From: an uncultured Elusimicrobia bacterium | GTDB lineage: Bacteria > Elusimicrobiota > Elusimicrobia > Elusimicrobiales > Elusimicrobiaceae | Assembly (NCBI GenBank): GCA_945913025.1 | Contig: CAMECJ010000001.1 | Location: 310,001-374,000 of the forward strand | Reading direction: 5' to 3' | Length of the DNA stretch: 64,000 nt | In this document: in pieces, positions 9,408 to 41,685 of the stretch | Numbering within the stretch: the first letter of the stretch is position 1 | Layout of the letters: every line of letters begins with the position of its first letter | The notes under the pieces: model-generated | The model's input: the letters and a program-made list of their open reading frames with translations, nothing else | What the model was told of the DNA's origin: nothing | The model's database searches: none | Translations under genes and position numbers: made by a program

Positions 9408-9440
9408 ATTATACAGTAACTAAACGACAACATCTTGTCT
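9408..9440 (-). promoter_or_regulatory. Palindrome promoter, site 0 (ADP-ribosylglycohydrolase)
   Basis: CGACAA-CATC-TTGTCt at 9425-9440, 11 bp, then -10 TATAAT (9413-9408, minus strand). One mismatch in the arm. The palindrome overlaps the last codons of the upstream recombinase gene, so it is under two constraints. Same geometry as the five sites further right. Confidence 0.72.
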
Positions 9441-11054
9441 TTTTTCCCAAGCAGCTACTTGCTTTTCGAAAGAAACCTGACTCTCTGCCAAGGTCATCAG
9501 TTCTTTTAGGCTCATATTACGCGGATTTCTGTACTCTAAAATATCCGTTACTATCTTGGGCGACAGATAACACAGGTTCAAGTAGCGCGCGAAGGTACGT
9601 TTGTTCATACCGCTGGCCGCCTCGCATTCTCGCAGGGATTTCCCCTTTTCTAGCAGCCGTTTTAACTGCCACCCGCGGGATAAGCCGCGTACTAAACTCT
9701 CGTTTAGCTGCCGGACAGTTAAAATGTTCCGCGCCGTCCCATTTTGCAGTTTAACTGATGACACATTATCCACTACAAAACTATTTCTAACATATAACCT
9801 ACCGTCTAACTTTTCAGCGGATAGCGTCCGGCTTTCTGCCTGACCGGATATCCTCGGACAAGCACTTAAATCTGCCTTTATCTGCTTTTCATCAAGGAAA
9901 ATGCTTAAATAGTGGGTTTTATCCTCGCTTTGGCAAAACGCCTTAACAATCCATTTTTGCATTTGGGCGTCTGTCATTCCCTCTCTGTCTGCCAGCGGCT
10001 CCAAATCGGCAAAATCCGTCATTTTAAGCGTTTTTAGCACAAAACTATCCAGTTGCTCCGCAGGCAGATATCGCCCGCCTGCGCCATTGTAATAATAGAG
10101 GAACTTTTTCCCCTTCTTGTTTGACGAAGTTAACCGATAAGACCGTCCTTTATCATCATATAACTTGCCAGCGAGTACGGTTTGATGCGTTTGATAGTGG
10201 CTAAACGCATGCGGATTCGTAATCCGCCGCCGGACAGTATCTTGCACGGCTTCCCATACGCTTTTAGGCACAATTGATTTATGCCGCCCCATATAAACCT
10301 TATTTTTGGCGTGGTGGGCTATCTTGCCGATATATACGGGATTAGTCAAAATACGTTGGATACTGCTCTTTTGGAATGCCTTTCCGCCCCGCAGCTGACC
10401 TGCGCGCGGCACCCAGCACTTGGTATGATATCCGTTTTGGTTGAGCCACTCCGCCACCGCCAGCATATTTTCTAGTTCCAAATACTTATTAAAAATCAGA
10501 TTAACAAGTTCGGTTTCTTGTGGGTTTGGGATTAATTGCTTGTCTTTTAGGTCATACCCAAGCGGCGGGGTTCCGCCCATCCATAGCCCTTTGGCTTTAC
10601 TGGCCGCGATTTTATCCCGTACGCGCTCCGCTGATACCTCCCGTTCAAACTGGGCAAAGGATAGCAGCATATTGAGCGTCAGTTTCCCCATAGAGTTACT
10701 GGTATCAAACGATTGCGTAATGGACACAAAATTACATCCGTATTTATCAAACTCTTGCATCATTTTGTGGAAGTCTATAATAGAGCGCGAAAGGCGGTCC
10801 ACTTTATAGACCACCACTACCTGTACTTTGCAGGCGCGAACTTCTTCTAAAAGGGCCTGTAGTCCGGGGCGCTCCATGGTACCACCACTAATACCTCCAT
10901 CCGAATATGTTTTATAATATTCCCAGTTATTGAATGCTTGGGATAGAATATATGCTTTGCAGGCTTCTTCTTGGTTTTGGAGCGAGTTAAACTCCATATC
11001 TAGACCATGTTCCGTAGATTTACGGGTGTATATAGCACAATTAACTTTTGGCAT
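9420..11054 (-). CDS. Large serine recombinase 1
   Basis: A 544-aa site-specific recombinase. Resolvase catalytic domain at about 1-150: YTRKSTEHG carries the nucleophile Ser, and VVVYKVDRLSRS and the 'LLSFAQFEREVSAERVRDK' helix follow. The Recombinase domain (about 165-270, 'GGTPPLGYD') and a C-terminal DNA-binding region with a helix-turn-helix-like stretch (SLRECEAASGMNKRTFARYL) complete it. Start chosen at MPKVNCAIYTRKS; AGGAG lies about 13 nt upstream, rather far. It cuts and rejoins DNA at att sites to integrate or excise an element. A close paralogue lies at 39173-40795; their N-terminal halves are nearly identical while the C-terminal DNA-binding parts diverge, and a third copy survives as a scrap at 44.5 kb. 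Confidence 0.95.
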   Translation of the reverse strand: MPKVNCAIYTRKSTEHGLDMEFNSLQNQEEACKAYILSQAFNNWEYYKTYSDGGISGGTMERPGLQALLEEVRACKVQVVVVYKVDRLSRSIIDFHKMMQEFDKYGCNFVSITQSFDTSNSMGKLTLNMLLSFAQFEREVSAERVRDKIAASKAKGLWMGGTPPLGYDLKDKQLIPNPQETELVNLIFNKYLELENMLAVAEWLNQNGYHTKCWVPRAGQLRGGKAFQKSSIQRILTNPVYIGKIAHHAKNKVYMGRHKSIVPKSVWEAVQDTVRRRITNPHAFSHYQTHQTVLAGKLYDDKGRSYRLTSSNKKGKKFLYYYNGAGGRYLPAEQLDSFVLKTLKMTDFADLEPLADREGMTDAQMQKWIVKAFCQSEDKTHYLSIFLDEKQIKADLSACPRISGQAESRTLSAEKLDGRLYVRNSFVVDNVSSVKLQNGTARNILTVRQLNESLVRGLSRGWQLKRLLEKGKSLRECEAASGMNKRTFARYLNLCYLSPKIVTDILEYRNPRNMSLKELMTLAESQVSFEKQVAAWEKRQDVVV

Positions 11055-11055
11055 A

Positions 11056-11107
11056 TTTGTTATAATTCTCCTATACACAGTAATGCTTACTAATGGGAGA
11101 GAAGTCA
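11056..11107. repeat. Recombinase boundary repeat, copy 1
   Basis: The sequence 5' of recombinase 1 up to cttactaatgggagagaagtcaa is almost the same as that 5' of recombinase 2 (40797-40851). Similarity stops just before the divergent cargo gene. A third, shorter copy lies at about 12768-12797. Candidate att half site. Confidence 0.55.
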
Positions 11108-11108
11108 A

Positions 11109-11819
11109 ATGGTTAAATTACTATTAAAAGAAAAAACGCCAGAATTATTTAAAGCTCTAAAAAAAGCTCATGAAAAATTACTTAAGCAAACCCGCTATTC
11201 TAATGACAATATCTTATTAGAAAAAAACCTCAATAATCACCACGATTTGGAAAATGCTTATTTCAAAGCAATACTCATTAATGCATTTTATAGTACTAGA
11301 ATGGGCGCAGATTTGGTCTATCAAGCCGCGAAACACATTTGCAGACATAAAAAAAATATAGCGAAACTTATTGAAAAAAATGCTTTAGAAAGCAAAGATT
11401 TAGACTTTTTAGATAAATTTTGCCATAAGAAAATTTCTCGCGATAAATCAAATATAGAAAGTGAAGACTATAACCCATATTCATTTTTTACTAAGTACTT
11501 AGCTATACATGATCGAATTTTAAACAAGAAAGAATCAAAATTTCCCATATATGATACTTTAGTAGCAAAAACAATTAAATCTTCCGATTTGTTTGAAAGC
11601 AAATTTAACCTAAGGAACTATCACTCTTTATATAATACTCTACAAGAAATTGGTACCCCTTATGGTGGGCTGACATCTATAGACAATATCCTTTGGATAT
11701 TAGGAAGATTTATATTTCAGAACAAAGATAAAAAAGAAAAGCAAATTTCAAACTTCAATAAATATTTATCTCAAAATTCTATCGATAAACTAACTAAAGA
11801 CATTATTAATTCAAAGTAA
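11109..11819 (+). CDS. Recombinase-module cargo protein, paralogue of 35684-36430
   Basis: A 236-aa, helical, lysine-rich protein of unknown function. It shares blocks with the 248-aa protein at 35684-36430: AYFKAILINAFYSTRMGA, 'YSFFTKYLAIHDRIL', 'YDTLVAKTI', 'LRNYHSLYNTL' and 'TSIDNILWILGRFIF'. Those conserved Asn/Tyr/Arg residues suggest an active site or partner interface. No membrane segment. It is transcribed divergently from the serine recombinase and starts only 2-3 bp after the boundary repeat. Strikingly AT-rich compared with the recombinase, which suggests a separate origin. The paralogue follows a PD-(D/E)XK nuclease gene, so a defence role is plausible but not shown. Confidence 0.75.
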   Translation: MVKLLLKEKTPELFKALKKAHEKLLKQTRYSNDNILLEKNLNNHHDLENAYFKAILINAFYSTRMGADLVYQAAKHICRHKKNIAKLIEKNALESKDLDFLDKFCHKKISRDKSNIESEDYNPYSFFTKYLAIHDRILNKKESKFPIYDTLVAKTIKSSDLFESKFNLRNYHSLYNTLQEIGTPYGGLTSIDNILWILGRFIFQNKDKKEKQISNFNKYLSQNSIDKLTKDIINSK

Positions 11820-11821
11820 TA

Positions 11822-12253
11822 TTATCTCGTTAATCCAAAAAACTTGGGGCCACTAACATGACCCCGAGTTATCTTCTGCGCTATTGCCGTCAAATTAGGA
11901 TAGATATTATTCCCCCACTCGTATTCTTTCTCCCCTTTTACAGTAACTTGATATATTTTCCCCTTATACTTCTTGGTTAGGATAGTCCCTATTGCCAAGG
12001 AATACTTATTCTTATTCGCCCGCTGAATATATTTCTCTGGGTTACTGGCGTATTTATCCAGCCTAGTGATATATTTTTCAGCCAGTTTACATCTATACAA
12101 CTCGCATTGGATAGCATACCACAGAGGACGATATTTACCTTTCCTTCCTCTTAACGGATAACGGTAGAAGATATCCCAATAGAATTGGAGTTTCTCATCG
12201 GATAATCCTTTAAGTTCTTCAAAACTTTTAGACAAATAACACTTATTTCTCAT
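11822..12253 (-). CDS. DUF2924 protein
   Basis: A 143-aa protein. The C-terminal half shows the DUF2924 pattern: GTILTKKYKGKIYQVTV, a Gly-rich strand, then 'YPNLTAIAQKITRGHVSGP' ending KFFGL. DUF2924 genes are regular neighbours of serine recombinases in prophages and islands; their role is unknown, perhaps as an accessory or directionality factor (inference). Its start overlaps the end of the preceding DUF5681 gene by 11 bp, and that gene overlaps another DUF2924-like gene by 4 bp, so three genes form one operon running toward the cargo gene. A truncated near-copy lies at 41675-41966 beside recombinase 2. Confidence 0.82.
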   Translation of the reverse strand: MRNKCYLSKSFEELKGLSDEKLQFYWDIFYRYPLRGRKGKYRPLWYAIQCELYRCKLAEKYITRLDKYASNPEKYIQRANKNKYSLAIGTILTKKYKGKIYQVTVKGEKEYEWGNNIYPNLTAIAQKITRGHVSGPKFFGLTR

Positions 12254-12820: not shown

Positions 12821-15481
12821 TCAACCTTTTGCAAATTGCGTAAAGTAAGCAAAATCGCGATTTGCAAGAACTTCTGTATGAGGAATAAGCAAATACTTCC
12901 ATTTTTTTGCACCGGTTCTTCCGGCATATTCATTTACCTGTGTTATCCACGTTATTGCCGCACGGGATTTTTCTTCCACCTCTGCCGATTCCAACTCTCG
13001 GGCACTCTTTATTTCTACCAGAAATAGATTTTCTGGCGTTTCCACCACAAAATCGGGCTCATATTTATGGCTTCCGTTACGCCAGTAAATATCAAATTGT
13101 CTTTCATTGGGTCTAAGCCATTTTTGAACCTTTTCATCTTGCTCTAAAATACCGGAAAAATCTTTTTCCGCTTTAGAATCAAACTTATACAAATTATGGC
13201 ACGCTTTCTTAAACCCTGTAAACACTTTACTGGGAATGGCACTGGTAGGTTCTATTGTGTCGGTATAATGATACACCTTATCCGAGGTTATTTTATCGTA
13301 ATTATGCGGATAAATCCGTTCAAACGGATAAACTTTAGCCGCCGTATAATCCGGCTGTACATAAACGGAATGTTGTTTCATTTGGGCAAAAATCAACTCC
13401 GAAATCGGTTTACGAAAGCTGACCAATACATTTTTAACGTCTTCATCGCTCAAATAACTCTTTAATTTATAAATTACGCTCTGCACTAAACTATACAGCA
13501 AATCCGCATAGTCTTCATAAGGAATTTCCGGAATATCATATAACGCCGCCAGTAGGATATTTTCCGCACTTTCTTGATTGATATTTCCCGACACTTTCCC
13601 TTGTAAGAAAGCAAACTGCCCGTCAGTTAATGACTTAATAAAAATTTCCTGCGATGCAGGCTGATATGTGATATTTGTCGTATCCAATTTAAAAGGCTGA
13701 AATTTTAAATAACCGTCTTTACCGGGCTGAACGATTACCCGCGGGATGGCAATAGTAGCACCAATAAACTCACGCACAAGCTGTTCGGAATGTTGTTTAA
13801 TTTCCGCAATATATTGTTGCGCAAACAAATCGCCCTTTTGCGTTAGATGTTCTTCCAAACGCTTGAAAGCCGTCTCCTGTACTTGTACTTCGGACAATTC
13901 TCCGATTTTCTGCACCTCACGCCCCATTTCGGGCAAAACCGTATCTTGGAAAATAGCTACCGCCTCTTTTACTTCCGGTGTAGGCGGAACCCAGAAGGAA
14001 GACGCCTGTTCCGCATTCTGTTCTTCTCTGCCAACGGACAGTATCGTATTGGAAACCACTACTTCTTTTGCGGGAGTATTATCAAAATCTTCATCTAATT
14101 CAATAATATTCTCTTTACGCAACAAACTGTTTTCCTTATTGGCTTCATCAATAATTGCTTGGAATTTATCGTGCGCCACAATGGTCAGCCGGTCGGCGGC
14201 GGTATCATTCGTAATGCGCCCATAAGGCAAACGCAGCCCGCGCCCGATGGTTTGTTCCGTAAGCGTATCGGAAGCGGACGTACGAAGCGGAACAATCGTA
14301 TACAAGTTGGTAACGTCCCATCCTTCTTTCAGCATATTGACGTGAATAACAATTTCCACTTTGTTCAAAGGATTTTCCAAAGAAAGCAGCTGCGCGATAT
14401 TTTCGTCTTTTTCGCTTCCTTTTTGGGCAGAGTGTACCACAATTACTTTGTCTTTATAGTAACCGTTATAAAAATCCTCGCCTTGAATCATTTGCTTGAT
14501 TGATTCGGCGTGTTCCGTATCTTTGGTAACGATAAGGACAAAGGGTTTTATAATTTTTCGTCCGTTATTGCGGGCGTACTTTTCCAGTTCCACCCGCGTA
14601 TGCTGATGAAGGCGAATGCCGTCCTGCACTTTCAAACGGTCAATTTCTTCCGGCGTAAAGTTATCCGGTTTCCAGTTTTTGCGGGTGGCGACATACGGCT
14701 TTTTAACAAACCCATCTTTTATGGCACGGGCTAAAGAGTACTCGTACACCACATTTCTAAAAGGGACAGCCTTACTGCCCTTTTGGATTTGCGGCGTAGC
14801 GGTTACTTCTATGCCCAAAACGGGGTTTAACTCGTTAATTACCTGCATAGCCCGTTTGGCGCGGTAGTGATGGCTTTCGTCCATTAATATCACCAACCGT
14901 TCGCGCGTAGCCAAATAATCAAAATAACTTTGCCCCAAATACTCGGACAGACGTTTAATCAACGGTTTATCTCCACTGCGTTCATCTGCATTGATTTTGG
15001 AAATATTAAAAATGTTGATTCGGATACTCTCTTGAAATAATTGGTGTTCCGTCATTTCGCGGTAAGTATCCCCCGTAATAACTAGCGGAGGATTCACTGC
15101 AAAATCCGATATTCCCTTGAAAACATATTTAGGGTTAGACGGCTGAGAAAAATCATCAATAAGTTTATTGTAAATAGTCAAATTCGGGGCCAGAATAAAA
15201 AAATCCTGTATGTGATATTCTTTATACAGATAGGCCACAAACGCCCCCATTAAACGGGTTTTGCCCACACCGGTAGCCAACGCAAAGCAGATGTTGGGAA
15301 ATTGCCGCTCAAAATCCTTAAAAACGGGGTATTTTGCCCGAATTTCCGCCACTTGAGAGGCGATGTCATTTTCTTTAGAAAGCGGCAAGAATTGGCAGAT
15401 ATCCGCCAAGATATTGAGGGCCTGCTCTTGCGGCGCGCGCAAAGAAAGACGATTTTTAATATACAAAGCGTTTTGATTCAT
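12821..15481 (-). CDS. res: Type III restriction enzyme Res subunit (DEAD/DEAH helicase-nuclease)
   Basis: An 886-aa protein with a superfamily 2 helicase core: Walker A region ALATGVGKTRLMG at about residue 65, DEAH-type box ILMDESHHYRA, motif III VTATP, and motif VI 'EQTIGRGLRLPYG'. The C-terminal nuclease domain has the PD-(D/E)XK residues in EPDFVVETPENLFLVEIKSA. Start chosen at MNQNALYIKN (AGGT 7 nt upstream), four bases after the preceding stop; a longer frame would overlap that gene. It cuts DNA when paired with Mod (16258-17901), from which it is separated by a membrane-protein gene, an unusual insertion. Confidence 0.93.
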   Translation of the reverse strand: MNQNALYIKNRLSLRAPQEQALNILADICQFLPLSKENDIASQVAEIRAKYPVFKDFERQFPNICFALATGVGKTRLMGAFVAYLYKEYHIQDFFILAPNLTIYNKLIDDFSQPSNPKYVFKGISDFAVNPPLVITGDTYREMTEHQLFQESIRINIFNISKINADERSGDKPLIKRLSEYLGQSYFDYLATRERLVILMDESHHYRAKRAMQVINELNPVLGIEVTATPQIQKGSKAVPFRNVVYEYSLARAIKDGFVKKPYVATRKNWKPDNFTPEEIDRLKVQDGIRLHQHTRVELEKYARNNGRKIIKPFVLIVTKDTEHAESIKQMIQGEDFYNGYYKDKVIVVHSAQKGSEKDENIAQLLSLENPLNKVEIVIHVNMLKEGWDVTNLYTIVPLRTSASDTLTEQTIGRGLRLPYGRITNDTAADRLTIVAHDKFQAIIDEANKENSLLRKENIIELDEDFDNTPAKEVVVSNTILSVGREEQNAEQASSFWVPPTPEVKEAVAIFQDTVLPEMGREVQKIGELSEVQVQETAFKRLEEHLTQKGDLFAQQYIAEIKQHSEQLVREFIGATIAIPRVIVQPGKDGYLKFQPFKLDTTNITYQPASQEIFIKSLTDGQFAFLQGKVSGNINQESAENILLAALYDIPEIPYEDYADLLYSLVQSVIYKLKSYLSDEDVKNVLVSFRKPISELIFAQMKQHSVYVQPDYTAAKVYPFERIYPHNYDKITSDKVYHYTDTIEPTSAIPSKVFTGFKKACHNLYKFDSKAEKDFSGILEQDEKVQKWLRPNERQFDIYWRNGSHKYEPDFVVETPENLFLVEIKSARELESAEVEEKSRAAITWITQVNEYAGRTGAKKWKYLLIPHTEVLANRDFAYFTQFAKG

Positions 15482-15485
15482 AACA

Positions 15486-16247
15486 TTACCTAAAGATTGT
15501 TGCTCCAATTGTTTGGAGGTATCTCACAATATTTGCCAATATCCAAATAACAAACGGGACTACAATTACTGTTAATAATACATTTACCAGATATTTTTTT
15601 AATTTATTTTCTTTAAATGCTACCACAGGAAATATCTTAGGCATTAAAGTTCTTAAATTTAGCATAGTATATGTCCAACAATTTGAGAACAACAATAACC
15701 AACCAATAAATGCAATCAAAAAAGGATGTTCAACATTCAATATAGAACTAGTTTTTACGGCTAAATATAGTGCGCAGAAAAACATCAATAAAACTGCAGT
15801 TATTTGAACAAACGCGTCCACTTTCCAGTTTCGAACCCACGAATACGAATTTTGATACTTACTCAATATCCCTTTTAGACGGTAAAAGGTTGCCTCCGTC
15901 CATTCTTTATAATCATTGGTAACACAAAAATATGAAAGATTTTGAATATTATTATTGAAACAAATAGAAATAATTTTTTCATTTTTTACTATTGTAATAT
16001 CCGAAACTTCAAAAAAGATTCTTTCCACTTTTTGGGCGTCGGAAAAATATTTTAATAAAGAATCAATATCATCAACAATATACCCTTTTCCGTCAAACCG
16101 AATTAGATACAAAAGCCGAGTATTCACTTCTTCTTTACCCGTATTGTATTGTCGGACAATATCCTTCAATTCAGTATCTATTCTTTTTATAGCATCTGCA
16201 GTAATTGTACACGCTTCAATAGTTTCTTCTACTAGGAATTTACCCAT
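15486..16247 (-). CDS. Membrane protein inserted between mod and res
   Basis: A 253-aa protein of unknown function. The soluble N-terminal part (about 1-150) is followed by three hydrophobic segments ('AVLLMFFCALYLAV', 'FLIAFIGWLLLFSNCW', 'VLLTVIVVPFVIWILA'), so the N-terminal domain probably faces the cytoplasm. Start ATG 16247 follows AAGGAG by 6 nt; eight residues of the longer frame are discarded. It lies 10 bp after mod and 4 bp before res, so it is co-translated with the restriction enzyme. A membrane effector within an RM operon is unusual and suggests an abortive or signalling add-on; it may also be a passenger. Confidence 0.68.
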   Translation of the reverse strand: MGKFLVEETIEACTITADAIKRIDTELKDIVRQYNTGKEEVNTRLLYLIRFDGKGYIVDDIDSLLKYFSDAQKVERIFFEVSDITIVKNEKIISICFNNNIQNLSYFCVTNDYKEWTEATFYRLKGILSKYQNSYSWVRNWKVDAFVQITAVLLMFFCALYLAVKTSSILNVEHPFLIAFIGWLLLFSNCWTYTMLNLRTLMPKIFPVVAFKENKLKKYLVNVLLTVIVVPFVIWILANIVRYLQTIGATIFR

Positions 16248-16257
16248 ATTCAACTCC

Positions 16258-17901
16258 TTACTCTTCCTCATCGTCTATGATGGGCGGGTTGATGATGTTT
16301 AGGTTGTAATTGTCTTTGCCAAATTCACAGCGGCCTAAAATGGCGGCAGGAATTTTTTTAACGGTTATGTTGGCAAAACGGGCAGATAAACCCGAATCAA
16401 AACTTTTACAGCAAACAAGCAGGCTTTCGCCGGCTTTCATATCCTGCGCAATACCGGACAGCAATTCTGCCCCCACGTGATTAGTGGTGGTATAAATATA
16501 GTCTGTTTCGCTGCTTTGGCCTTGTTTCCAAAATTGCTCAGCAGACGGCGCATATTTAAAACCTTCGTGCTTGGCTACCGCCGCGGCCAACATATCGGCA
16601 TTGTATTCTTTGGATATTACATATTGTCCGTATTTGTCTTTGTTGAGCAAGCTAGGAGCTAAATAGTAGTATTTGAAACCGCCTCCGCCTTTCCAGCCGA
16701 CGGCTTTGGATATACCGCCTTGATCCATACCGTCAATTACTTTTTGTAAGCGCGGGATACAATGGGTGTGGCAATGTAATGCCATTTCCACTCCAATGTA
16801 TTTTCGATGCATTTTATGTGCTACTGCAGCCGTTGTACCAGAGCCCAAAAAAGAATCTAATACTAAATCTCCTTTTTCCGTCGACATCTCGAGTATGCGT
16901 TTGATTTGAACTTCTGGTTTTTTCCCTCTTTTAAACGTTACTCCACCTTCTCGAGCAATACCTTGATAATTCATATCTGTCCACAGATTTGTTACCAATT
17001 CTGCAGTCACCAATTTTCCATCCACCAATCGCATTTTATCTTTATAAAATAAAATGCGATTACCATTCAACAAAAATAAGTCCGGATGAGCAGTTCTTGA
17101 ATGTTTGTAGATAATTTGCGGATTCTTTTTAGATAAATCGATTGCTTCTCTAATATCTTTTCCTACATTGGCATAATCAGGTTGCGCAAATCTAATAATT
17201 CTTTCGGGGAAATGTGTTAAACAATATTGTAAAGATTTATTATTTTGGTTTAAATATTCTTTTAAAGAGCAAAAATGCCATTGATTATATGGTTCTTCGT
17301 AGTTGATAATAATAGAATTATAAGCCTCATCATATTCTCTAGATTTATAAACTGGATGATAAACATATGAATCTTTGTCTTTAGCGTATGCCAACATCAA
17401 ATCACAAACTTGAACGGGTGTTGGATTAATGGCTTTATGTCCAGTCGCAGCTCCGCGTTGTACAATTGTTTGAATAATAAAATTTTTTCTTTTAAACACC
17501 TCATCACATAAAACTTTAAGATAATGCCCTTCTTTTTCATCTATGGAAATCCAAATACTTCCATCATTACTCAATAGATTTCTCATAATTTCCAAGCGAG
17601 GTTTCATTAAGGACAGCCAAGTGGAGTGTTCTAAATTATCATCATAGCCTACTTCATTACCGTCTGCATCAATACGACTTCCGGTGTTATAGGGTGGGTC
17701 AATATAGATACATTTTACTTTTCCGGCATATTCTTGTTCCAATGCTTTTAAGGCAAGCAAATTATCCCCATAAATAAGCATATTATCGGTGTTTTTATCG
17801 CCATAGTCTTTAGTGGGGTCATGCACCAAAATCCGCGGTTCCACCTTAATAGGGGTATCTTTTCCAATCCACGTCAGTTCCAACTTCTGTTTATTTGCCA
17901 T
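16258..17901 (-). CDS. mod: Type III restriction system methyltransferase (Mod)
   Basis: A 547-aa beta-class DNA N6-adenine methyltransferase. DPPYNTG (about residue 70) is the catalytic motif and LDSFLGSGTTAAVA (about residue 350) the SAM-binding motif. The region between them is the likely target-recognition domain; its local AT content is higher than the flanks, which suggests exchange of specificity. Start ATG 17901 (MANKQKLEL) follows AAGGA by about 8 nt; an in-frame TTG two codons earlier is rejected. The C-terminal about 150 residues (with 'YYYLAPSLLNKDKYG') are of the kind that binds Res. Together with res and the SNF2 gene it forms a restriction locus. Confidence 0.95.
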   Translation of the reverse strand: MANKQKLELTWIGKDTPIKVEPRILVHDPTKDYGDKNTDNMLIYGDNLLALKALEQEYAGKVKCIYIDPPYNTGSRIDADGNEVGYDDNLEHSTWLSLMKPRLEIMRNLLSNDGSIWISIDEKEGHYLKVLCDEVFKRKNFIIQTIVQRGAATGHKAINPTPVQVCDLMLAYAKDKDSYVYHPVYKSREYDEAYNSIIINYEEPYNQWHFCSLKEYLNQNNKSLQYCLTHFPERIIRFAQPDYANVGKDIREAIDLSKKNPQIIYKHSRTAHPDLFLLNGNRILFYKDKMRLVDGKLVTAELVTNLWTDMNYQGIAREGGVTFKRGKKPEVQIKRILEMSTEKGDLVLDSFLGSGTTAAVAHKMHRKYIGVEMALHCHTHCIPRLQKVIDGMDQGGISKAVGWKGGGGFKYYYLAPSLLNKDKYGQYVISKEYNADMLAAAVAKHEGFKYAPSAEQFWKQGQSSETDYIYTTTNHVGAELLSGIAQDMKAGESLLVCCKSFDSGLSARFANITVKKIPAAILGRCEFGKDNYNLNIINPPIIDDEEE

Positions 17902-17937
17902 ATTCAAAATCCTTCAAAAAGTTATAAAGTCATTGTA

Positions 17938-19770: not shown

Positions 19771-22734
19771 TTACACCACTTTCCACCCGATGGTAAAAAG
19801 TTCCTGTTCGGTTACATCGTTTTGCAAGCGCTGTTGTAAATCGTCTAAAATACGGTCTTTACGATGAGAAATTTCATCCTGTTCCTCATATAGGCGGGCA
19901 CGCTTTTGGCGGCGTAAATCCTCCTTTTCTTTCTGTTGGTGGCCCAAAGATAATTTCTCCTGTAAAGACGTGGTTTCTCGGTTTTGTTTTTTTAAGGCTT
20001 TTATTTCTTTATCCAAATCCTTAATTTCCCGTTCTAAATCGTTCTTTAAATCGTCAGCCCATTGGTCCAACTTATCCATTTCAGCGTCAAAATACTGGCT
20101 GTTCTCTTGGGATATTTGCTCCAAAATCTGTTTTTTACGCGTTTCAGCGTTTTCCACCAACTGATGACGGATTTTATCCCCAATTTGTATGGGTTCCGCC
20201 TCCACCGGCAGCGTTTTAAATAACTTTTGGGCATATTCGGGCGATAACGCCTTTCCCTCATCAGTATACATAGAAAATATTAAATACTCGGTAGTATCCA
20301 AAGCGGAAACCGTCATTTTTGTTACCCGCAAATAGCCACTTTTACCCACTAAATGCTTTATCATAGCCAAATTTTTGCCGCTATGCGTATAGTCAAACGT
20401 AATTTGTTCCTCTTGCGGTTTCCGCGCAAGTACATACTGAAGCAACGTCTGCATCATCGGCAAATTTAAATGCAAGGGGCGCGTGGCAACCAGCGACTGT
20501 TTAAGGCTATAAGTACCGCTCCATTCTTTTTGCCAAAACGGCAATTTGGGAGTGGTAATAAACACGGAATGCGTATTTTTATCGTAAGAAAATGATTTCC
20601 CCAAAGAGGCCTGTAAAAACGATAACATATACTCTTCGTATTGGGTTAAATCCGCCAAAGACTTATCCAACCCCTTAATGCGTCTTTGCACGTCTTCGTC
20701 AAAATTATCAAAGATTTTGCTCTTGGCTTGATTGGTAGCTTGAGCAATGGTATCACTCAACTGGGCTTGTAAGTTGTCAAAAGCCTGCTGAATTTCCCGC
20801 TCGGTACGGCATTTTTGAAAAATATCGGCTATGGCTTTTTCAATATCCACGCCGGATTCCAACGCCCCTAAAACAGGATCCGACGAGCCAAAGACCCCGT
20901 CAAACAGGTTTAACTTGTTTTTTAACAGCTCCAATACGCGTTGATCCGCCGCATTTGCCGTATTTAAAAAATTAATGACCACCACATCATATTTCTGCCC
21001 ATACCGATGACAGCGGCCGATACGCTGTTCCACACGTTGAGGGTTCCACGGCAAATCATAATTCACCACCGCGTTACAAAACTGCATATTTAAACCTTCG
21101 GCACCCGATTCCGTGGCCAATAAAATTTCCGCATGCTCTTTAAATTCTTCCAAAATTGCGGCGCGGGTATCGGCCGACGCAATACCGGTAATTTTACCGT
21201 CTGTTTGATGGCGTTCCTTCCACTTCTTTAACAGGGCTTTACTGGCCGGATCGGTATTGGTGCCATTAAGGGTTAACGTGCATTTGGAAAAACCGTTTTT
21301 ATCCAGCAATTCTTTTAAGTATTGTTGGGTACGACAGCTTTCGGTAAACACTAAAATTTTACGCGGGCTCCCCAACTGTTTTGCCTGCGCAAAAGCCTGT
21401 TCAATTCCGCGCAACAAGGCTTTTCCTTTCGCGTTTTCAGTAATACTTTGAGCCAACTTACGATAATCTTCCAACTGCTTGATTTCATTAGTAATTAACT
21501 CGCGAAAGTGCGCTTTTTCTTTTAATGTCAGCGTGTGTGAAGATTTTGGAAAGGGATATAAACAACCTTCCTGCGAATCCCCCGCTTCAGCCCAATCGTC
21601 CCGCATATCTTCCAAAGAATCAAAATCCGACGCCAAATTTACATCCGGCTCCGGATATTGCGTTTCACGCACCTTTTTTAGACGTTCCACCAGTTTGCCC
21701 AAAGTGTCCGAAATAGCAAAGGAAGAAGAAGCCAAAATCTTACGAATCACCAGCATTAATAAAGCATTATTACTGGCAGATACCCCAAAAGAAGGATTGC
21801 GAAGATACTCGGATACTTTTTCATATAAAGACAATTCCTCTTTGGAAGGCGTAAAATCTATCGTCAGGGAACTGCGTTTGGTGTAACGCACATATTGCTG
21901 CACTTGCCGACGAAGAGTTCTGTGAGCGATAGGAGAAATCCTTTGTTTAAGGTCATTAAATAAACGCTCGGCGCGGCTTTCCGCCGCCGTTTTATCCCCT
22001 TCTGGCAACATAGGAAACGAATCAAAAACTTCGGAATGTTGAATAAATTGCGATTTAAAAGATTCTAAATTGCCAAAAATCCGGTCATCCACAAAACTGA
22101 CAAGCCCGTACAACTCCAGCAAAGAGTTCTGCAGGGGAGTTGCCGTCAATAACAGTTTTTTCCGTTGGGCGGTAGATACTTGAATAGAGCGGGCAATTTT
22201 ATTGTCGGAACGATACACATTACGCAACCGATGAGCTTCATCTATCACCACCAAATCCCAATCCGTTAAAGCGACTTCTTTTTCCATCCTTCGTGCATAT
22301 TGGTAAGAGCAAATAACAACCTTATTCTTTTGATTAAACGGAAATTCGTTACCCTCTTTTTGACATTGTTTATAGGTTTTAGTATCCAGGATAAAAGAAT
22401 CTATAAAAAATTTATCGCTTAATTCCCCCTGCCACTGTTTGCGGATGGAAGCCGGTGTAATACACAGAATTTTGCGCTTATTCTCCGCCCATAGTTGACT
22501 GATTACAAGCCCCGCTTCAATCGTTTTTCCCAACCCAACTTCATCCGCCAAAATAGCCCCTTTAGAAAGAGGATTTTTAAACGCAAATAAAGCCGCATCA
22601 ATTTGGTGCGGAGTTAAATCAATAGTAGAATTGAGTACAGAACGCCCGAGTTTGCTGACAGAGTTGGCCGGATTTTGTAAGGTTAAAAGTTGGGCGAAAT
22701 ATTGTGCTTGGGCAAATGATTTCACAAAAAACAC
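19771..22734 (-). CDS. SNF2-family helicase of the restriction locus
   Basis: A 987-aa SNF2-type ATPase. Motifs in order: LADEVGLGKTIEAGLV (Walker A, about residue 62), VVIDEAHRLRN (Walker B), LLTATPLQN (III), the helicase C-terminal domain with 'LATESGAEGLNMQ' and 'NPQRVEQRIGRCHRYGQ' (VI), then a long charged coiled coil (about 840-960, rich in Glu/Lys/Gln). There is no obvious nuclease motif. First gene of the leftward run ending in res. SNF2 translocases occur in DISARM and other composite restriction systems, but DISARM partners (DUF1998 protein, PLD nuclease) are absent here, so this is a different combination. Confidence 0.93.
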   Translation of the reverse strand: MFFVKSFAQAQYFAQLLTLQNPANSVSKLGRSVLNSTIDLTPHQIDAALFAFKNPLSKGAILADEVGLGKTIEAGLVISQLWAENKRKILCITPASIRKQWQGELSDKFFIDSFILDTKTYKQCQKEGNEFPFNQKNKVVICSYQYARRMEKEVALTDWDLVVIDEAHRLRNVYRSDNKIARSIQVSTAQRKKLLLTATPLQNSLLELYGLVSFVDDRIFGNLESFKSQFIQHSEVFDSFPMLPEGDKTAAESRAERLFNDLKQRISPIAHRTLRRQVQQYVRYTKRSSLTIDFTPSKEELSLYEKVSEYLRNPSFGVSASNNALLMLVIRKILASSSFAISDTLGKLVERLKKVRETQYPEPDVNLASDFDSLEDMRDDWAEAGDSQEGCLYPFPKSSHTLTLKEKAHFRELITNEIKQLEDYRKLAQSITENAKGKALLRGIEQAFAQAKQLGSPRKILVFTESCRTQQYLKELLDKNGFSKCTLTLNGTNTDPASKALLKKWKERHQTDGKITGIASADTRAAILEEFKEHAEILLATESGAEGLNMQFCNAVVNYDLPWNPQRVEQRIGRCHRYGQKYDVVVINFLNTANAADQRVLELLKNKLNLFDGVFGSSDPVLGALESGVDIEKAIADIFQKCRTEREIQQAFDNLQAQLSDTIAQATNQAKSKIFDNFDEDVQRRIKGLDKSLADLTQYEEYMLSFLQASLGKSFSYDKNTHSVFITTPKLPFWQKEWSGTYSLKQSLVATRPLHLNLPMMQTLLQYVLARKPQEEQITFDYTHSGKNLAMIKHLVGKSGYLRVTKMTVSALDTTEYLIFSMYTDEGKALSPEYAQKLFKTLPVEAEPIQIGDKIRHQLVENAETRKKQILEQISQENSQYFDAEMDKLDQWADDLKNDLEREIKDLDKEIKALKKQNRETTSLQEKLSLGHQQKEKEDLRRQKRARLYEEQDEISHRKDRILDDLQQRLQNDVTEQELFTIGWKVV

Positions 22735-25805: not shown

Positions 25806-25855
25806 AGGATATAACAGTCTCACGACAACCTGTTGTCGCGCCATTTTGCTATACT
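25806..25855. promoter_or_regulatory. Bidirectional palindrome promoter, site 1
   Basis: CGACAA-CCTG-TTGTCG at 25823-25838. Rightward: 11 bp then TATACT (25850-25855). Leftward: 11 bp then TATCCT (25811-25806). No -35 consensus; the palindrome occupies that place in both directions. Confidence 0.82.
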
Positions 25856-25862
25856 ATAATTA

Positions 25863-25984
25863 CCATAGAGAGTGTACGAGGGACAAGCCCGGTGACTACA
25901 CAGCAACCTGCCTAGGCAAGGTGCTAATGCTTGGAAGATGGGATTACCTCCATTAGACCCATCTTTACGATGGGTTTTCTTTTT
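25863..25984 (+). ncRNA. SAM-I-like (S-box) riboswitch with terminator
   Basis: Aptamer 25863-25941. P1 is CCAT/ATGG (25863-25866 with 25938-25941); then AGAG; P2 GTGT/ACAC plus GGG/CCC with the kink-turn GA; the GCAACC core; P3 CCTGCC/GGCAAGG (25907-25921); then GGTGCTAAT and AAGATGGG. These match the S-box core in order, though the usual P4 hairpin is missing. The 3' P1 strand AAGATGGG can instead pair with CCCATCTT (25958-25965); when P1 forms, CCCATC pairs with GATGGG (25958-25974) followed by TTTTCTTTTT. So SAM should switch transcription off. The promoter is palindrome site 1. Confidence 0.8.
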
Positions 25985-26019
25985 GATACTCCTATGGAAT
26001 TTATCTACAAGAGGTAATT

Positions 26020-26496
26020 ATGAAAATAATTCTTAATAGTATGTATCAAAAGCGTTTTCCTTCGGAAATAAAAATAGATAAAGATGCCCAACTAGAAGTA
26101 TTTTTATTTAAATATCTTCACTTTAACAAAAAACTAATCACGCAGGAAGATTTCAAAAAAGCCTGTGGAAACAGTTTAAGAGGAATCAAATTCCCCACAG
26201 AGTTTAACTGCAAAATAAAATGGGCTTATATTCGGTGTTTGCATAGTTTCTTAGCTGAAAAGAAAGACGTCCGTTTCCTAGACAAGTTACGCAACGACTA
26301 TCCCGAATATTATAGAGCAACCGAACTTTATCTGAAGAAGTTTTATTATGGCATTATTAGACAGTTAGTAAAAGATTATCATACTAAACAAATGAGAAGA
26401 AAATATGCCGATATGATGATGTCCGGTTTAAGTCTGCTAGAAGATGCTGGGTTAAAACCGACTTTTGGCCCACAACAAACCACTAAAAATAAGTGA
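26020..26496 (+). CDS. Riboswitch-controlled hypothetical protein, 158 aa
   Basis: Unrecognised soluble protein, rich in Lys, Tyr and Phe and predicted helical; no signal peptide, membrane segment or Met-pathway motif is visible. AGAGGT lies 6 nt before the ATG. It is the only gene between the SAM-I-like riboswitch and the next regulon promoter, so it is what the riboswitch controls. S-box targets are normally methionine or SAM synthesis and transport genes, and this is none of those by sequence. It is also controlled by the palindrome promoter, so it would be made when the regulon is on and SAM is low. Confidence 0.78.
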   Translation: MKIILNSMYQKRFPSEIKIDKDAQLEVFLFKYLHFNKKLITQEDFKKACGNSLRGIKFPTEFNCKIKWAYIRCLHSFLAEKKDVRFLDKLRNDYPEYYRATELYLKKFYYGIIRQLVKDYHTKQMRRKYADMMMSGLSLLEDAGLKPTFGPQQTTKNK

Positions 26497-26513: not shown

Positions 26514-26549
26514 CTGCGACAATAGATTGTCGCAGTTGTTTTATATTCT
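26514..26549 (+). promoter_or_regulatory. Palindrome promoter, site 2 (ankyrin gene)
   Basis: A perfect 22-bp palindrome (26514-26535) containing CGACAA-TAGA-TTGTCG, then 11 bp from the arm to TATTCT (26544-26549). No leftward -10 at the matching distance, so it works in one direction only. Confidence 0.82.
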
Positions 26550-26578: not shown

Positions 26579-27292
26579 ATGCTTAAAATGACACTCGGCG
26601 AGGCTGTCAGCCAAAATTGTATGCGCGTGGTGCGTGAATATATTGAATCGGGCGCGGACCCAAATGCATCTGCGGACGGACTTGTTCCGCTGCGTGAAGC
26701 GTGTTTTAGTGAAAACATTCCCATGATTAAGTATTTGCTAGAACATGGGGCAAACCCGAATGGACGCGACCCGGACGATGATGAAACTGTGTTGGAATCG
26801 TATATCCACCACTGTTATAAGCGTGTTAATACAGCGGTATTGCGCCGGTTATTGCGTGCAGGAGCGAACCCAAATCTACGCAAAGCCAAAGAACTACGTC
26901 CCATGTTTCATTGGGCCATTTTTAACAATATAAAACGACTGGTTTCTATCTTATTGGAATATGGTGCGGATGTAAACCAACGTGGAAAAGTGCACGACGG
27001 AGAGACTCCGCTGATGACTGCAGCTTATTTTGCCGATATTTCTATTATGGAAATGCTCCTCAAGCACGGTGCAGATGTCAACGCACGAGATGGAAGCGGA
27101 TGTAATGCCTTATTCTATGTTGTTATGGGCGATTGTCCGTGGCAAGAAATACTGCCGCGGTTTAAGTTGCTTTTCAAGTATAGCATTGATTTGCACGCAC
27201 AGGAAAAACACGGCAAAAACATTTTACAGTATGGTTTTCGTTTGAATAATGCCACAAAACGTTGGCTTCGCAAGCACGGAGTTAAAGAATAA
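26579..27292 (+). CDS. Ankyrin-repeat protein
   Basis: A 237-aa protein of about six ankyrin repeats filling nearly the whole length; typical repeat hallmarks are VREYIESGADPNA, 'IKYLLEHGANPNG', 'LRRLLRAGANPNL', 'VSILLEYGADVNQ' and 'MEMLLKHGADVNARD'. There is no signal peptide, so it acts in the cytoplasm, probably as a protein-binding scaffold. AAGGAG precedes the ATG by 7 nt. It has its own palindrome promoter and stands alone. Ankyrin proteins appear in several antiphage and toxin-associated loci, but the partner cannot be named from sequence. Confidence 0.92.
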   Translation: MLKMTLGEAVSQNCMRVVREYIESGADPNASADGLVPLREACFSENIPMIKYLLEHGANPNGRDPDDDETVLESYIHHCYKRVNTAVLRRLLRAGANPNLRKAKELRPMFHWAIFNNIKRLVSILLEYGADVNQRGKVHDGETPLMTAAYFADISIMEMLLKHGADVNARDGSGCNALFYVVMGDCPWQEILPRFKLLFKYSIDLHAQEKHGKNILQYGFRLNNATKRWLRKHGVKE

Positions 27293-33755: not shown

Positions 33756-33805
33756 AGGATAACAAACTCTTGCGACAACATCTTGTCGCCCCGATGTGCT
33801 ATACT
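33756..33805. promoter_or_regulatory. Bidirectional palindrome promoter, site 4 (WYL regulator and deiminase operon)
   Basis: CGACAA-CATC-TTGTCG at 33773-33788 (GCGACAA/TTGTCGC arms). Rightward 11 bp then TATACT (33800-33805), about 18 bp before the WYL start; leftward 11 bp then TATCCT (33761-33756). The regulator gene's own promoter carries the palindrome, as expected for autoregulation. Confidence 0.85.
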
Positions 33806-33822: not shown

Positions 33823-34743
33823 ATGCAAAAAGAAATGCACAACAAACTAACACGTCTTTTGTATGAACTTAACGCCCTAGATAAAGGGCAAATCCGCTTA
33901 AAAGATATGGCGGTGGAAACCGGTGTAGCGGTGCGCACCATTCAGCGGGATATGAACGATATTCAAGAGGCCGATTTCCCGCTTTGGAACCCTGATCCCG
34001 GCGTATATGCCTTTATAGAAGGGTTTTCGCTAGAGCGCATGAAACTCTCCAGCGCGGAGGCCTCTATTTTGGTACTCATGAGTGATATGGCATCCTCGCT
34101 AGGCGGCAATTTCGGGCACTCGTTTGCCATGCTTAAAAACCGCCTATTAGCCACTCCGCAGGATAACCCATTCTTTATCAAAATGAATAGCGGAGAAATG
34201 TATAAAGATACCCCCATTACACGTACGCTGGAAGAATGCGTACGCGGACGTGAATATGTGAATATATGCTACAAAGGCGGGAGCATGGCGTGTTACCCTG
34301 TGCGACCATTAAAGTTAATGTGGGTAGACGGGTTTTGGTATCTTTTAGCTTTTACAAATGACGACAAACTCTTAAAATTCCGCTTGGAAAAGATTACCTC
34401 TGCCAAAGCCCTAAACAAACCCTTCAAATATAATAAAAATATTGATAAAATCTTGCGAGAAAGTACAAACATATGGTTTGAAAAAGACCGCCCCTTATCG
34501 GTGCAGTTAGAAGTATCGGCCGAGTGCGCGCATTTCTTTAAACAAAAGAACTATTTTCCGTTGCAAAAGCTAGAAAAGGAGCTCAAAGACGGGCGCATCG
34601 TCCTCTCGTGCAAAGCCGCCAAAGAGAACGAAATTTTGCCCACCATTTTGCATTGGTTACCGCATATTAAGGTGCTATCCCCCGCCACATTACACACGCG
34701 GGTAAAAGACGTATTAAACGATTATTTAAGGAGTGTAAAATGA
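33823..34743 (+). CDS. WYL-domain transcription regulator, likely master of the palindrome regulon
   Basis: A 306-aa protein. Residues about 5-60 form a DeoR/HTH_11-type helix-turn-helix (MAVETGVAVRTIQRDMNDI); the WYL domain follows at about 140-215 with 'YPVRPLKLMWVDGFWYLLAF', then a C-terminal WCX-like domain to the end. WYL regulators bind nucleotide or nucleic-acid ligands and control many CRISPR, BREX and other defence loci. AGAGGT lies 6 nt before the ATG. The gene is divergent from the deiminase operon across site 4. Binding to the palindrome is inferred from position, repeat symmetry (these proteins dimerise) and the lack of another regulator in this block. Confidence 0.93.
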   Translation: MQKEMHNKLTRLLYELNALDKGQIRLKDMAVETGVAVRTIQRDMNDIQEADFPLWNPDPGVYAFIEGFSLERMKLSSAEASILVLMSDMASSLGGNFGHSFAMLKNRLLATPQDNPFFIKMNSGEMYKDTPITRTLEECVRGREYVNICYKGGSMACYPVRPLKLMWVDGFWYLLAFTNDDKLLKFRLEKITSAKALNKPFKYNKNIDKILRESTNIWFEKDRPLSVQLEVSAECAHFFKQKNYFPLQKLEKELKDGRIVLSCKAAKENEILPTILHWLPHIKVLSPATLHTRVKDVLNDYLRSVK

Positions 34744-39172: not shown

Positions 39173-40795
39173 TTATAGTCCGTTCCAAACTTTTTCGTAC
39201 TCCTCAAAATTTACTCGGCCCTCGGCAAGATTCATTAGTTCACGCAATGTTAAATTAGCCGGGTTTTTATATTCCAAAATATCTGCTACGATACGTGGGG
39301 ATAAATAACACAAGTTGATATACCGCATAATGGTACGCTTTGTCATACACTGTTCTTTCTCTAAATCTTTAATATAAATCCCCTGTTCTATCCGTTTTTT
39401 CAGTTGCCAACCGCGCGCAAGCCCCCGGACTAAACTTTCGTTTAGTTGTCGCACCGTTAATATATTTCGTGCGGTACCGTTTCGCAATTTTACCGAGGAA
39501 ACATTTGCCACCATAAAACTATCCCGCAAGTAGATTTTATCTTCTATCCTTTCCATTTTCAGCGGTTTAGTATCAACTTGCCCCGACATTTTCGGGCAGT
39601 TGCCTAGATCGACTTTTATTTGTTTTTCGTCTAAAAATAATGTCAAATAATGCTTTTTATCCACGGTTTGACATATGGCCTTAGTAATCCATGCGCTTAA
39701 TTGCGCGTCCGTAATAGCACTCATGTTCGCCAACGGCTCAATATCGTCAAAACCTGCCTTTTTGAGCATACTTAACACAAACCTGTCCAACTGCTCCACG
39801 GGTAAATAATGGCCTCCGACACCATTGTAATAATACAAAAACTTCTTACCCTGCTTTTTTGATGAGGTAAAGCGGAAATTCTGCCCCTTATCATCGTATA
39901 ATTTGCCCGCCAATACCGTTTTATGGCATTTATAGTGCAAGAAGGCGTTCGGATCGTTAATTCTTCGGTGTATAAGCGTTTGAACTTGCTCCCATAAATC
40001 CGGCGGTACAATTCCCGGATGCTTACCTTCATACACTTTGTTTTGAGCGTAGTGCGCGATTTTTCCGATATAAAGCGGATTTGTCAAAATGCGCTGCACA
40101 TTACTTTTGTGAAACTGCCCACCGCCATGTTCCCGTTTGCTGCGCCTAGCCATCCATTTCTTCGTACAAATACCTTGTGCGTTAAGGTAATCGGCAACAG
40201 CAAACATATTCTCAGTTTCAATATATTTTTGAAAAATCAGCCGGACTAACTGCGCCTCTTCTTCATTTACACTAAGTTGCCGCTCATTGGCATCATATCC
40301 AAGCGGCGGCGTTCCTCCCATCCATAACCCTTTGGCCTTACTGGCAGCAATTTTATCGCGCACACGCTCGGCAGATACTTCCCGCTCAAATTGTGCAAAA
40401 GACAAAAGCATATTAAGCGTGAGTTTTCCTATAGAATTGCTCGTATCAAACGACTGAGTTATAGATACAAAGTTACACTCGTACTTGGCAAATTCCTGCA
40501 TCATTTTATGGAAATCAAAGATAGAGCGCGAAAGACGGTCCACTTTATAGACGACAACTACCTGTATATTGCGCTCGCGGATTTCTTCCAAAAGCGCTTG
40601 CAAGCCGGGGCGCTCCATCGTGCCACCGCTAATCCCGCCATCCTCAAAAGTTTTATAATACTCCCACCCGTTACATGCTTGCGAGAGGATATAGGCCTTA
40701 CACGCCTCTTCTTGGTTTTGGAGCGAGTTAAACTCCATATCCAGTCCATGCTCCGTGGATTTACGTGTATAGATTGCACAGTTAATTTTTGGCAT
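39173..40795 (-). CDS. Large serine recombinase 2
   Basis: A 540-aa paralogue of recombinase 1 with the same architecture: nucleophile Ser in YTRKSTEHG, 'VVVYKVDRLSRS', 'SFAQFEREVSAERVRDKIAA', GGTPPLGYD. The catalytic domain is nearly identical while the zinc-ribbon and C-terminal DNA-binding portions differ more, as expected if the two recognise related but distinct att sites. Start at MPKINCAIYTRKS. Divergent from an HNH cargo gene. Its 3' end lies beside palindrome site 5. Confidence 0.95.
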   Translation of the reverse strand: MPKINCAIYTRKSTEHGLDMEFNSLQNQEEACKAYILSQACNGWEYYKTFEDGGISGGTMERPGLQALLEEIRERNIQVVVVYKVDRLSRSIFDFHKMMQEFAKYECNFVSITQSFDTSNSIGKLTLNMLLSFAQFEREVSAERVRDKIAASKAKGLWMGGTPPLGYDANERQLSVNEEEAQLVRLIFQKYIETENMFAVADYLNAQGICTKKWMARRSKREHGGGQFHKSNVQRILTNPLYIGKIAHYAQNKVYEGKHPGIVPPDLWEQVQTLIHRRINDPNAFLHYKCHKTVLAGKLYDDKGQNFRFTSSKKQGKKFLYYYNGVGGHYLPVEQLDRFVLSMLKKAGFDDIEPLANMSAITDAQLSAWITKAICQTVDKKHYLTLFLDEKQIKVDLGNCPKMSGQVDTKPLKMERIEDKIYLRDSFMVANVSSVKLRNGTARNILTVRQLNESLVRGLARGWQLKKRIEQGIYIKDLEKEQCMTKRTIMRYINLCYLSPRIVADILEYKNPANLTLRELMNLAEGRVNFEEYEKVWNGL

Positions 40796-40796
40796 A

Positions 40797-40851
40797 TTTG
40801 TTATAATTCTCCTATACACAGTAATGCTTACTATCGGGAGATAAGTCAAGG
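40797..40851. repeat. Recombinase boundary repeat, copy 2
   Basis: Nearly the same as 11056-11107; ends with cttactatcgggagataagtcaa. Beyond it the DNA differs completely (HNH gene here, unknown cargo there). Confidence 0.55.
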
Positions 40852-40863
40852 AGATAAAATTTT

Positions 40864-41685
40864 ATGCCGTACAGAAAAGACGAGAACTGGTACATTTCAT
40901 ACCAGAGGAAAGATGGGCAAAATAATGATTATTATATTTTCCCAAAAGATAAACAGGCCTTTTGGAAACTTGCTGAAGAAAATGGAGGAATTCTTTTGCG
41001 ATTTATAAGCAAGTTTTCCTCACCACTTCCGCAAACGCAACATTTTATTACAATTTCCAAAACACCACATACGAGCGATGTATCCACTTTTATTCGTACC
41101 AGCACCATAGGAAATACCAATATTTCAAAACTATTTAAAGATACTATTGTTTTAGCTGTTCCTAAAGGCGAAGAAGAAGCATTAGGGTACCGTTTATTTG
41201 CTTTTAACTATGAAAATGAAACTATCCGCGTTGAAAAAGAAATTAAAAGACAAAGAGAACTTTACCAATCTTTTCAAGAGCCGGTTGGCCCGGAACCAAA
41301 ACCACAATGTTCTGGTGTTGTTGCACACGCTATTTATCCCCGTGATATTCGAAAAAAAGCAAATGCTATCCGAAAAGCCAATTTTGTGTGTGAGATTTCT
41401 AATAGCCACAAACTATTTAAATCCCGATCTACCAACCAAAACTATGTGGAAGGGCATCATCTAATTCCATTAAAACAATGGGATAACTTTCCATTTTCTT
41501 TGGATGTAGAAGCAAATATTGTAGTACTATGCCCCCATTGTCATAAAATGTTACATCATGGGAAAAAAGAAGAAATTAGGCCGCTATTAGACCTCTTATT
41601 TCAAAAACGAGAGAAAGAGCTTGCCGGTAAAGGAATTAAACTTACTATTGAGCAACTATCTTCCTATTATGGATTTAGCTACTGA
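40864..41685 (+). CDS. HNH endonuclease, cargo of recombinase module 2
   Basis: A 273-aa protein. The C-terminal HNH domain (about 180-240) shows 'YVEGHHLIPLKQWDNF', 'LDVEANIVVLCPHCHKMLHHG' with the two Cys and catalytic His. The N-terminal 150 residues are a separate domain, possibly the MrcA/'EVE-like' recognition part found in HNH restriction enzymes (inference). AAGGAG precedes the ATG. It starts directly after the boundary repeat, where module 1 has its unknown cargo. A modification-dependent restriction role is plausible since no methyltransferase is adjacent. Confidence 0.86.
   Translation: MPYRKDENWYISYQRKDGQNNDYYIFPKDKQAFWKLAEENGGILLRFISKFSSPLPQTQHFITISKTPHTSDVSTFIRTSTIGNTNISKLFKDTIVLAVPKGEEEALGYRLFAFNYENETIRVEKEIKRQRELYQSFQEPVGPEPKPQCSGVVAHAIYPRDIRKKANAIRKANFVCEISNSHKLFKSRSTNQNYVEGHHLIPLKQWDNFPFSLDVEANIVVLCPHCHKMLHHGKKEEIRPLLDLLFQKREKELAGKGIKLTIEQLSSYYGFSY

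Follow-up and report, generated by a model that had tools for sequence, protein, structure and literature searches.

The window, a 64,000-nucleotide stretch of DNA from an uncultured Elusimicrobia bacterium, belongs to a 1.76-Mb genome and contains an island with type III restriction-modification genes (Res, 12821-15508; Mod, 16258-17907), a gene for a DrmD-like SNF2 helicase (19771-22734), and genes for a WYL regulator and for proteins resembling SoFic and the AAA ATPase IetA. On either side the island has a serine recombinase gene (9420-11108 and 39173-40849), the two being related. These genes, together with the recombinase flanks, make the label ‘defence-type island’, given to the region in an earlier sequence-only reading, a fair one. 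The two recombinase regions (9420-12114 and 39173-41967) bracket the island and carry repeats that are 71-88% identical and lie ~29.8 kb apart. The features of interest are a riboswitch leader, the 158-aa open reading frame (ORF) behind it, and three copies of a palindromic operator:

25823-25838, unstranded: palindromic operator CGACAACCTGTTGTCG over the -35 region; exact palindrome, candidate site for the WYL regulator
25850-25855, + strand: predicted -10 box TATACT of the extended type (TGCTATACT), read from the sequence; the layout is alike upstream of the sister aptamers
25863-25941, + strand: P4-less SAM-I aptamer, from the RF00162 match and reading of the sequence
25935-25942 and 25958-25965, + strand: antiterminator AAGAUGGG/CCCAUCUU, exactly complementary and mutually exclusive with P1
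25943-25950, + strand: AUUACCUC, exact complement of GAGGUAAU at the Shine-Dalgarno; paired in the SAM-type constrained fold
25956-25976, + strand: intrinsic terminator hairpin with exact arms, read from the sequence, and a U-rich tail (to 25985)
25988-25997, + strand: post-terminator element ACUCCUAUGG; its complement is the 5' strand of the aptamer, CCAUAG...GAG (25863-25872)
26010-26014, + strand: Shine-Dalgarno AGAGG, read from the sequence
26020-26496, + strand: riboswitch-controlled ORF of 158 aa with a Shine-Dalgarno; predicted helical (low confidence), no family match
26517-26532, unstranded: second operator CGACAATAGATTGTCG, ahead of an ankyrin-repeat gene (26579-27292)
33773-33788, unstranded: operator before the WYL regulator gene, found as a palindrome match
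33823-34743, + strand: transcription regulator of the WYL/WCX-domain type; candidate master regulator for the palindromes

When the whole window was searched with cmscan, the sole Rfam match above its gathering score was the SAM family (RF00162), which spans 25860-25976 of the + strand with 55.3 bits (E 5.1e-10), the gathering score being 44.4. The aptamer proper has its 3' end near 25941, and the remainder of the Rfam span is expression platform. As read from the sequence, P1 is formed by CCAU and AUGG (25863-25866/25938-25941), which make four standard pairs followed by an A-G mismatch, the kink-turn P2 is formed by GUGUA..UACAC with GGG..CCC, and P3 includes GCAACC..GGUGC. In the pseudoknot that joins the P2 loop to J3-4, CAAGC (25884-25888) pairs with GCUUG (25929-25933). 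The aptamer has all known SAM-contact nucleotides, which we take to be U7-A87 and A6-U88 in P1, G11, GCAACC and GGUGC (T. tengcongensis numbering). Where the P4 helix is expected, 3 nt (GAA) lie between the pseudoknot strand GCUUG and the G preceding the 3' strand of P1, and the P4 positions of the Rfam alignment are occupied by terminator sequence. Since that helix is missing, the element is best called a P4-less SAM-I variant, judging from its sequence, and not a canonical SAM-I riboswitch. The sequence-only reading had described a SAM-I-like riboswitch without P4 and had proposed a search with the Rfam S-box model; the match above the gathering score, the presence of the core, kink-turn P2 and pseudoknot, and the short linker bear out this description.

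The variant belongs to a wider class, in 127 members of which P4 is replaced by a linker of mostly 3-5 nt. Across the class the pseudoknot covaries, as A is combined with GCUUG in 125 cases and G with GCUCG in two, and covariation is also seen in the P2 extension (TA/TA, CG/CG, TG/CA and CA/TG). The search pattern for the class was built from known members, which in part builds in the conservation of the aptamer core and fixes most SAM-contact nucleotides of the wider set; the expression platform lies outside the pattern.

The expression platform contains two switch elements. The first is the antiterminator/terminator pair that the sequence-only reading had placed ahead of the 158-aa ORF; both pairings are indeed exact, with the terminator arms GACCCAUC and GAUGGGUU followed by the U-run. 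The second is the post-terminator element, which belongs to a CUCUUnUGG type positioned after the terminator, just upstream of the Shine-Dalgarno, and complementary to the aptamer 5' strand, comprising the 5' strand of P1, J1/2 and the start of P2. In 113 leaders the duplex between the 5' strand and the post-terminator element has a mean energy of -11.4 kcal/mol, as compared to -6.5 kcal/mol for dinucleotide shuffles, and in 106 of them the leader's own duplex lies below the shuffled value. When partners were permuted among leaders, the observed mean was reached in none of 10,000 trials, a comparison that ignores phylogeny. The pairing also appears to be partner-specific: CCAU P1 strands go with RUGG 59:0, CCUAU strands go with UAGG 21:9 (Fisher p 1e-13, uncorrected for relatedness), and one leader (L148) contains the exact partner pair CUAUCAAGAG and CUCUUGAUAG. 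In contrast, metK switches with the canonical, P4-containing architecture, taken from the same genomes, on average show no more complementarity to the 5' strand than shuffled sequence does.

The Shine-Dalgarno itself is enclosed in a hairpin that is stronger than chance across the class (mean z -3.3), and it is paired in 89% of cases, as compared to 63% when the upstream part is shuffled. Six members without a terminator (L074, L096, L159, L163, L169 and L190) retain the Shine-Dalgarno element, and for this reason the post-terminator element looks, at the sequence level, like a translational platform in its own right, to which the terminator would be an added layer. In the window the long-range helix comprises 6 bp plus 3 more after a mismatch and is weaker than in many relatives. 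Constraining the window RNA to form the antiterminator and the long-range helix gives -52.2 kcal/mol, against -53.0 kcal/mol for the minimum free energy fold, and the SAM-type fold gives -43.7 kcal/mol, a value that does not count the ligand or the pseudoknot. The ligand-free, non-aptamer fold is thus favoured by ~8 kcal/mol, and switching would have to be co-transcriptional. The complementarity of the post-terminator element to the aptamer 5' strand suggests coupled transcriptional and translational control.

The promoter upstream of the aptamer carries the palindromic operator, which has the form CGACA-N6-TGTCG, and transcription is predicted to start at ~25861-25863, at P1. With up to 3 mismatches allowed, the window contains 10 copies of the palindrome, where 0.8 would be expected, and the genome has 13 copies of the degenerate form CGACAnnnnnnTGTCG per strand, as compared to 2 copies of a reversed control. 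In five genomes the palindrome keeps an identical position, at -45 relative to the GAG of the aptamer. The non-random palindrome over the -35 region, repeated in the window and the genome, agrees with the regulon promoter postulated in the sequence-only reading. Because the palindrome also lies ~25-120 bp upstream of the WYL gene in 9 of the 10 closest WYL homologues, the WYL protein is, from position only, the likely regulator of the palindrome and is probably autoregulated. Elsewhere in the same genome (L195:2104-11372), two large ORFs that by eye resemble AddA/AddB helicase-nuclease subunits lie, together with a second WYL gene, among three more palindromes. In genomes of another family of the same order (G061-G083), CGACAnnnnnnTGTCG is present 20-65 times in many genomes as compared to 1-8 times for the control, which suggests that the palindrome regulon is much larger in these genomes.

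Taken together, these features probably make the element an OFF switch that responds to SAM, belongs to a P4-less lineage of SAM-I and is equipped with a second switch strand for the Shine-Dalgarno and a WYL-gated promoter. The sequence itself shows the SAM-I core, the complementarities and their conservation; what we infer are the ligand, the occurrence and direction of switching, and a gate for two signals formed together with the WYL operator. With SAM bound, P1 and P2 would hold the 5' strand and the antiterminator strand would be caught in P1, so that the terminator forms, and the Shine-Dalgarno of any transcript that reads through would be sequestered. At low SAM, the 3' strand of P1 would pair with the 5' arm of the terminator and allow read-through, and the freed 5' strand would pair with the post-terminator element, which would destroy the aptamer and open the Shine-Dalgarno. 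As the operator covers the -35 region, the promoter would be under the control of the island's WYL regulator, and the 158-aa gene would be made only when the promoter is released and SAM is low. The claim that the gene is switched on at low SAM is thus supported as OFF-switch logic, with its direction inferred from anatomy. The leader could instead be an ordinary SAM-I transcriptional attenuator, in which the complementarity at the Shine-Dalgarno reflects shared ancestry or a local hairpin and has no regulatory role. The known S-box mechanism needs a terminator and antiterminator alone, the post-terminator element is weak or absent in some class members (L098, L119, L136 and several metK leaders), and a published covariation model of the whole RF00162 riboswitch found no significant covariation between aptamer and platform (PMC13273304). 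We nevertheless consider a simple attenuator unlikely, as it would not account for the partner-specific complementarity between the 5' strand and the post-terminator element, the lack of this complementarity in P4-containing switches of the same genomes, or the retention of the Shine-Dalgarno element by members that have no terminator.

The gene that would be controlled by this OFF switch is accessory island cargo and not a recognisable methionine gene, as had been read from the sequence; its product has no family match in Pfam, PHROGs or PADLOC. A profile of the protein searched against PDB sequences gave nothing meaningful (best E 0.59), and the AlphaFold2 model, built on a three-sequence alignment, is unusable (pLDDT 49.8). 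Searches with peptide patterns in genomic and viral contig collections found no homologues; searching the whole genomes of relatives did detect some, in 5 of 148 other genomes from this order, at up to 57% identity. All five are located at P4-less SAM aptamer loci, four behind the aptamer and one directly in front of it. In G015 and G028 the homologue follows the aptamer directly, as does a 42-aa remnant of it in L161 (taken as G155 from its contig position); it lies later in an aptamer-headed operon in G018, and it is immediately upstream of the aptamer in G034; ORF starts were assigned mechanically. The window's own genome has two RF00162 matches, neither of which belongs to metK, whose leader by eye contains no S box. 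The second aptamer (contig C4:6202; L008:6202-12588) heads an operon that comprises a 41-aa ORF and genes for a ClpX-like AAA ATPase, membrane/TPR proteins and a protein with an N-formylglutamate amidohydrolase (FGase) domain. A WYL-type HTH gene lies directly upstream of this aptamer in sister genomes, and a serine recombinase gene adjoins it.

The lineage extends well beyond this genome, to other gut and rumen bacteria and some of their phages. RF00162 matches, mostly of the P4-less type, are present in 26 of 120 relative genomes, and the core pattern occurs in at least 117 stretches of a genomic contig collection, with Ruminococcus, Lachnospiraceae, Oscillospiraceae, Erysipelotrichaceae, Spirochaetales, Bacteroidales, Gastranaerophilales and Elusimicrobia among the matches listed. 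It also occurs in 8 IMG/VR contigs, and similarity searches of a phage collection identified Ruminococcus phage NatCom_28274 and Bacteriophage sp. MT835503.1; at the sensitivity of a similarity search, a plasmid collection yielded no similar aptamer. In NatCom_28274 the P4-less aptamer precedes a gene at L192:6001-6297 and has undergone a compensatory change in P2b (GAGAGAC..GCUC). Surrounded by - strand genes, the cassette forms a small unit on the + strand that has a promoter-like sequence of its own, and a DNA methyltransferase gene lies 2.2 kb beyond the aptamer-linked gene.

The first downstream ORFs of 128 non-redundant aptamers include a ~100-aa orphan family (37), metK (9), N-formylglutamate amidohydrolase (8) and a zinc-ribbon family that is partly fused to a second domain (7), and among the remaining ORFs are those for MORN-repeat proteins and further small families; apart from the metK cases, most of the genes are orphans. 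In R. flavefaciens ND2009 and SAb67 and in Ruminococcus FC2018, metK lies behind a canonical P4-containing SAM-I riboswitch (~84 bits), whereas the P4-less switch fronts the ~100-aa orphan, and further genomes are split likewise. The ~100-aa protein, the commonest behind these switches, is predicted to have an alpha/beta fold (pLDDT 92.2). Foldseek searches of the model against the PDB returned no match at E <=0.001, a second structural comparison reached a best Z of 2.2, and what matched in a viral structure library, small and uncharacterised proteins of phages, did so only weakly (best E 0.02).

N-formylglutamate amidohydrolase genes are found directly behind P4-less SAM aptamers at six loci (L102, L103, L112, L126, L165 and L174) in Bacillota and Gastranaerophilales-type genomes, and the same family ends the Elusimicrobial ClpX operon; that this repeated link to SAM sensing reflects salvage of N-formyl-methionine is a guess. 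Zinc-ribbon proteins with the motif CPxCGK...SGxHxIKFxCLxC follow aptamers in several phyla (L058, L066, L070, L147, L145, L153, L181 and L014), either alone or fused to a domain that by eye is DnaA-like. At one further locus (L209; G123:C6), a divergent SAM-I match without a clear P4 precedes an ORF that by eye resembles an ECF-type transporter membrane protein.

The sequence-only reading had proposed the switch as a counter-measure to phages that deplete SAM; in such a scheme the 158-aa gene would protect the cell, or restriction in it, once a phage has degraded SAM. The gene lies in a defence-type island with a SAM-dependent type III restriction system, its regulon is of the WYL type, the logic would be ON at low SAM, and SAM-degrading enzymes of phages are a known form of counter-defence (PMC7877911). 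The class, however, is used far outside defence, in front of metK, amidohydrolase and MORN-protein genes, phages themselves carry it, and the 158-aa ORF has no recognisable function. Methyltransferases are also rare nearby, as a motif search detected a DNA-methyltransferase-like ORF at 7 of the 148 surveyed class loci, given here as a raw count. The anti-phage proposal is therefore not upheld as stated; we regard it as quite improbable, and a counter-measure to SAM depletion is one possibility for the window locus, and not a favoured one. A broader proposal is that the element is a mobile promoter-sensor cassette for low SAM, with which gut phages and islands would time accessory (host-conflict) genes to SAM depletion, using dual control by one aptamer strand and, in Elusimicrobiota, a WYL gate. 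This proposal is tentative, and we hold it to be doubtful.

Nine class members precede metK, and SAM is for this reason the likely ligand of the P4-less form. The unusual regulons and the loss of P4 could also mean that the aptamer has drifted to another ligand, perhaps SAH or an analogue of SAM; targets outside methionine metabolism would then be accounted for. We judge such drift very improbable, because the known SAM-contact nucleotides are kept, though most are fixed by the search pattern, and because in two of the genomes with a P4-less switch in front of metK (G136 and G137) this switch is the sole SAM-I match, among the genomes searched. Chance resemblance or a decayed riboswitch, to which the presence of just two such matches in the genome might point, has a negligible probability and was rejected, as the score exceeds the gathering cut-off and compensatory changes, the expression platform and the downstream ORFs are conserved across genomes.

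SAM riboswitches are textbook regulators of sulfur metabolism. If the proposed OFF switch operates as described, the SAM level would be read as a signal for something besides methionine supply, a view based on the P4-less lineage, the coupled platform, the orphan targets in islands and phages, and the ordinary metK switch in the same genome. It would also place a set of orphans, comprising the ~100-aa alpha/beta protein, the zinc-ribbon family, the amidohydrolase and the ClpX-like operon, under a shared and testable trigger. The P4-less variant of the SAM sensor has apparently not been described so far: a literature search for P4-less SAM-I, phage SAM riboswitches, links between amidohydrolases and riboswitches, and the present platform layout found none, although this does not prove their absence.

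Not all aspects of the element set it apart from known systems. It shares with SAM-I (S box, RF00162) the core, the SAM contacts, a kink-turn P2 split into P2a and P2b, the pseudoknot between the P2 loop and J3-4, and the logic of P1, antiterminator and terminator, but P4 is absent, a second switch strand acts at the Shine-Dalgarno in our model, and the targets are mostly non-methionine genes. SAM-IV also has no P4 and shares the ligand core. It contains P5, a second pseudoknot (PK-2) and a turn unlike the SAM-I kink-turn (PMC6890682), whereas the element described here has a kink-turn sequence of the SAM-I type and keeps PK-1; inspection revealed no conserved partner for P5 or PK-2, as the P3 loop is variable in both length and sequence and terminator sequence makes up the 3' side. 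SAM-I/IV (RF01725) likewise shares the ligand core, and in that family P2 is undivided, PK-1 is absent and P4 is present (PMC6890682, PMC2864571). Assignment to it was rejected, as the element has an internal loop in P2, forms PK-1 and has no P4. Among the WYL proteins known to regulate defence islands are BrxR and CapW (PMC9122601, PMC9122588, PMC9122589), and the island resembles these systems in having a WYL protein with an inverted-repeat operator at its own promoter. It differs in that the same type of operator also fronts a riboswitch-controlled gene, which would create a two-signal gate, with binding of the WYL protein to DNA being putative. Finally, in dual transcription/translation platforms, as proposed here, one ligand event affects both termination and ribosome access. 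In the known examples the ribosome binding site is buried in the 3' side of the terminator (PMC2258182), whereas in the P4-less leaders a separate post-terminator hairpin would open on re-pairing with the 5' strand of the aptamer; in such a platform design both switches would rely on a single aptamer strand.
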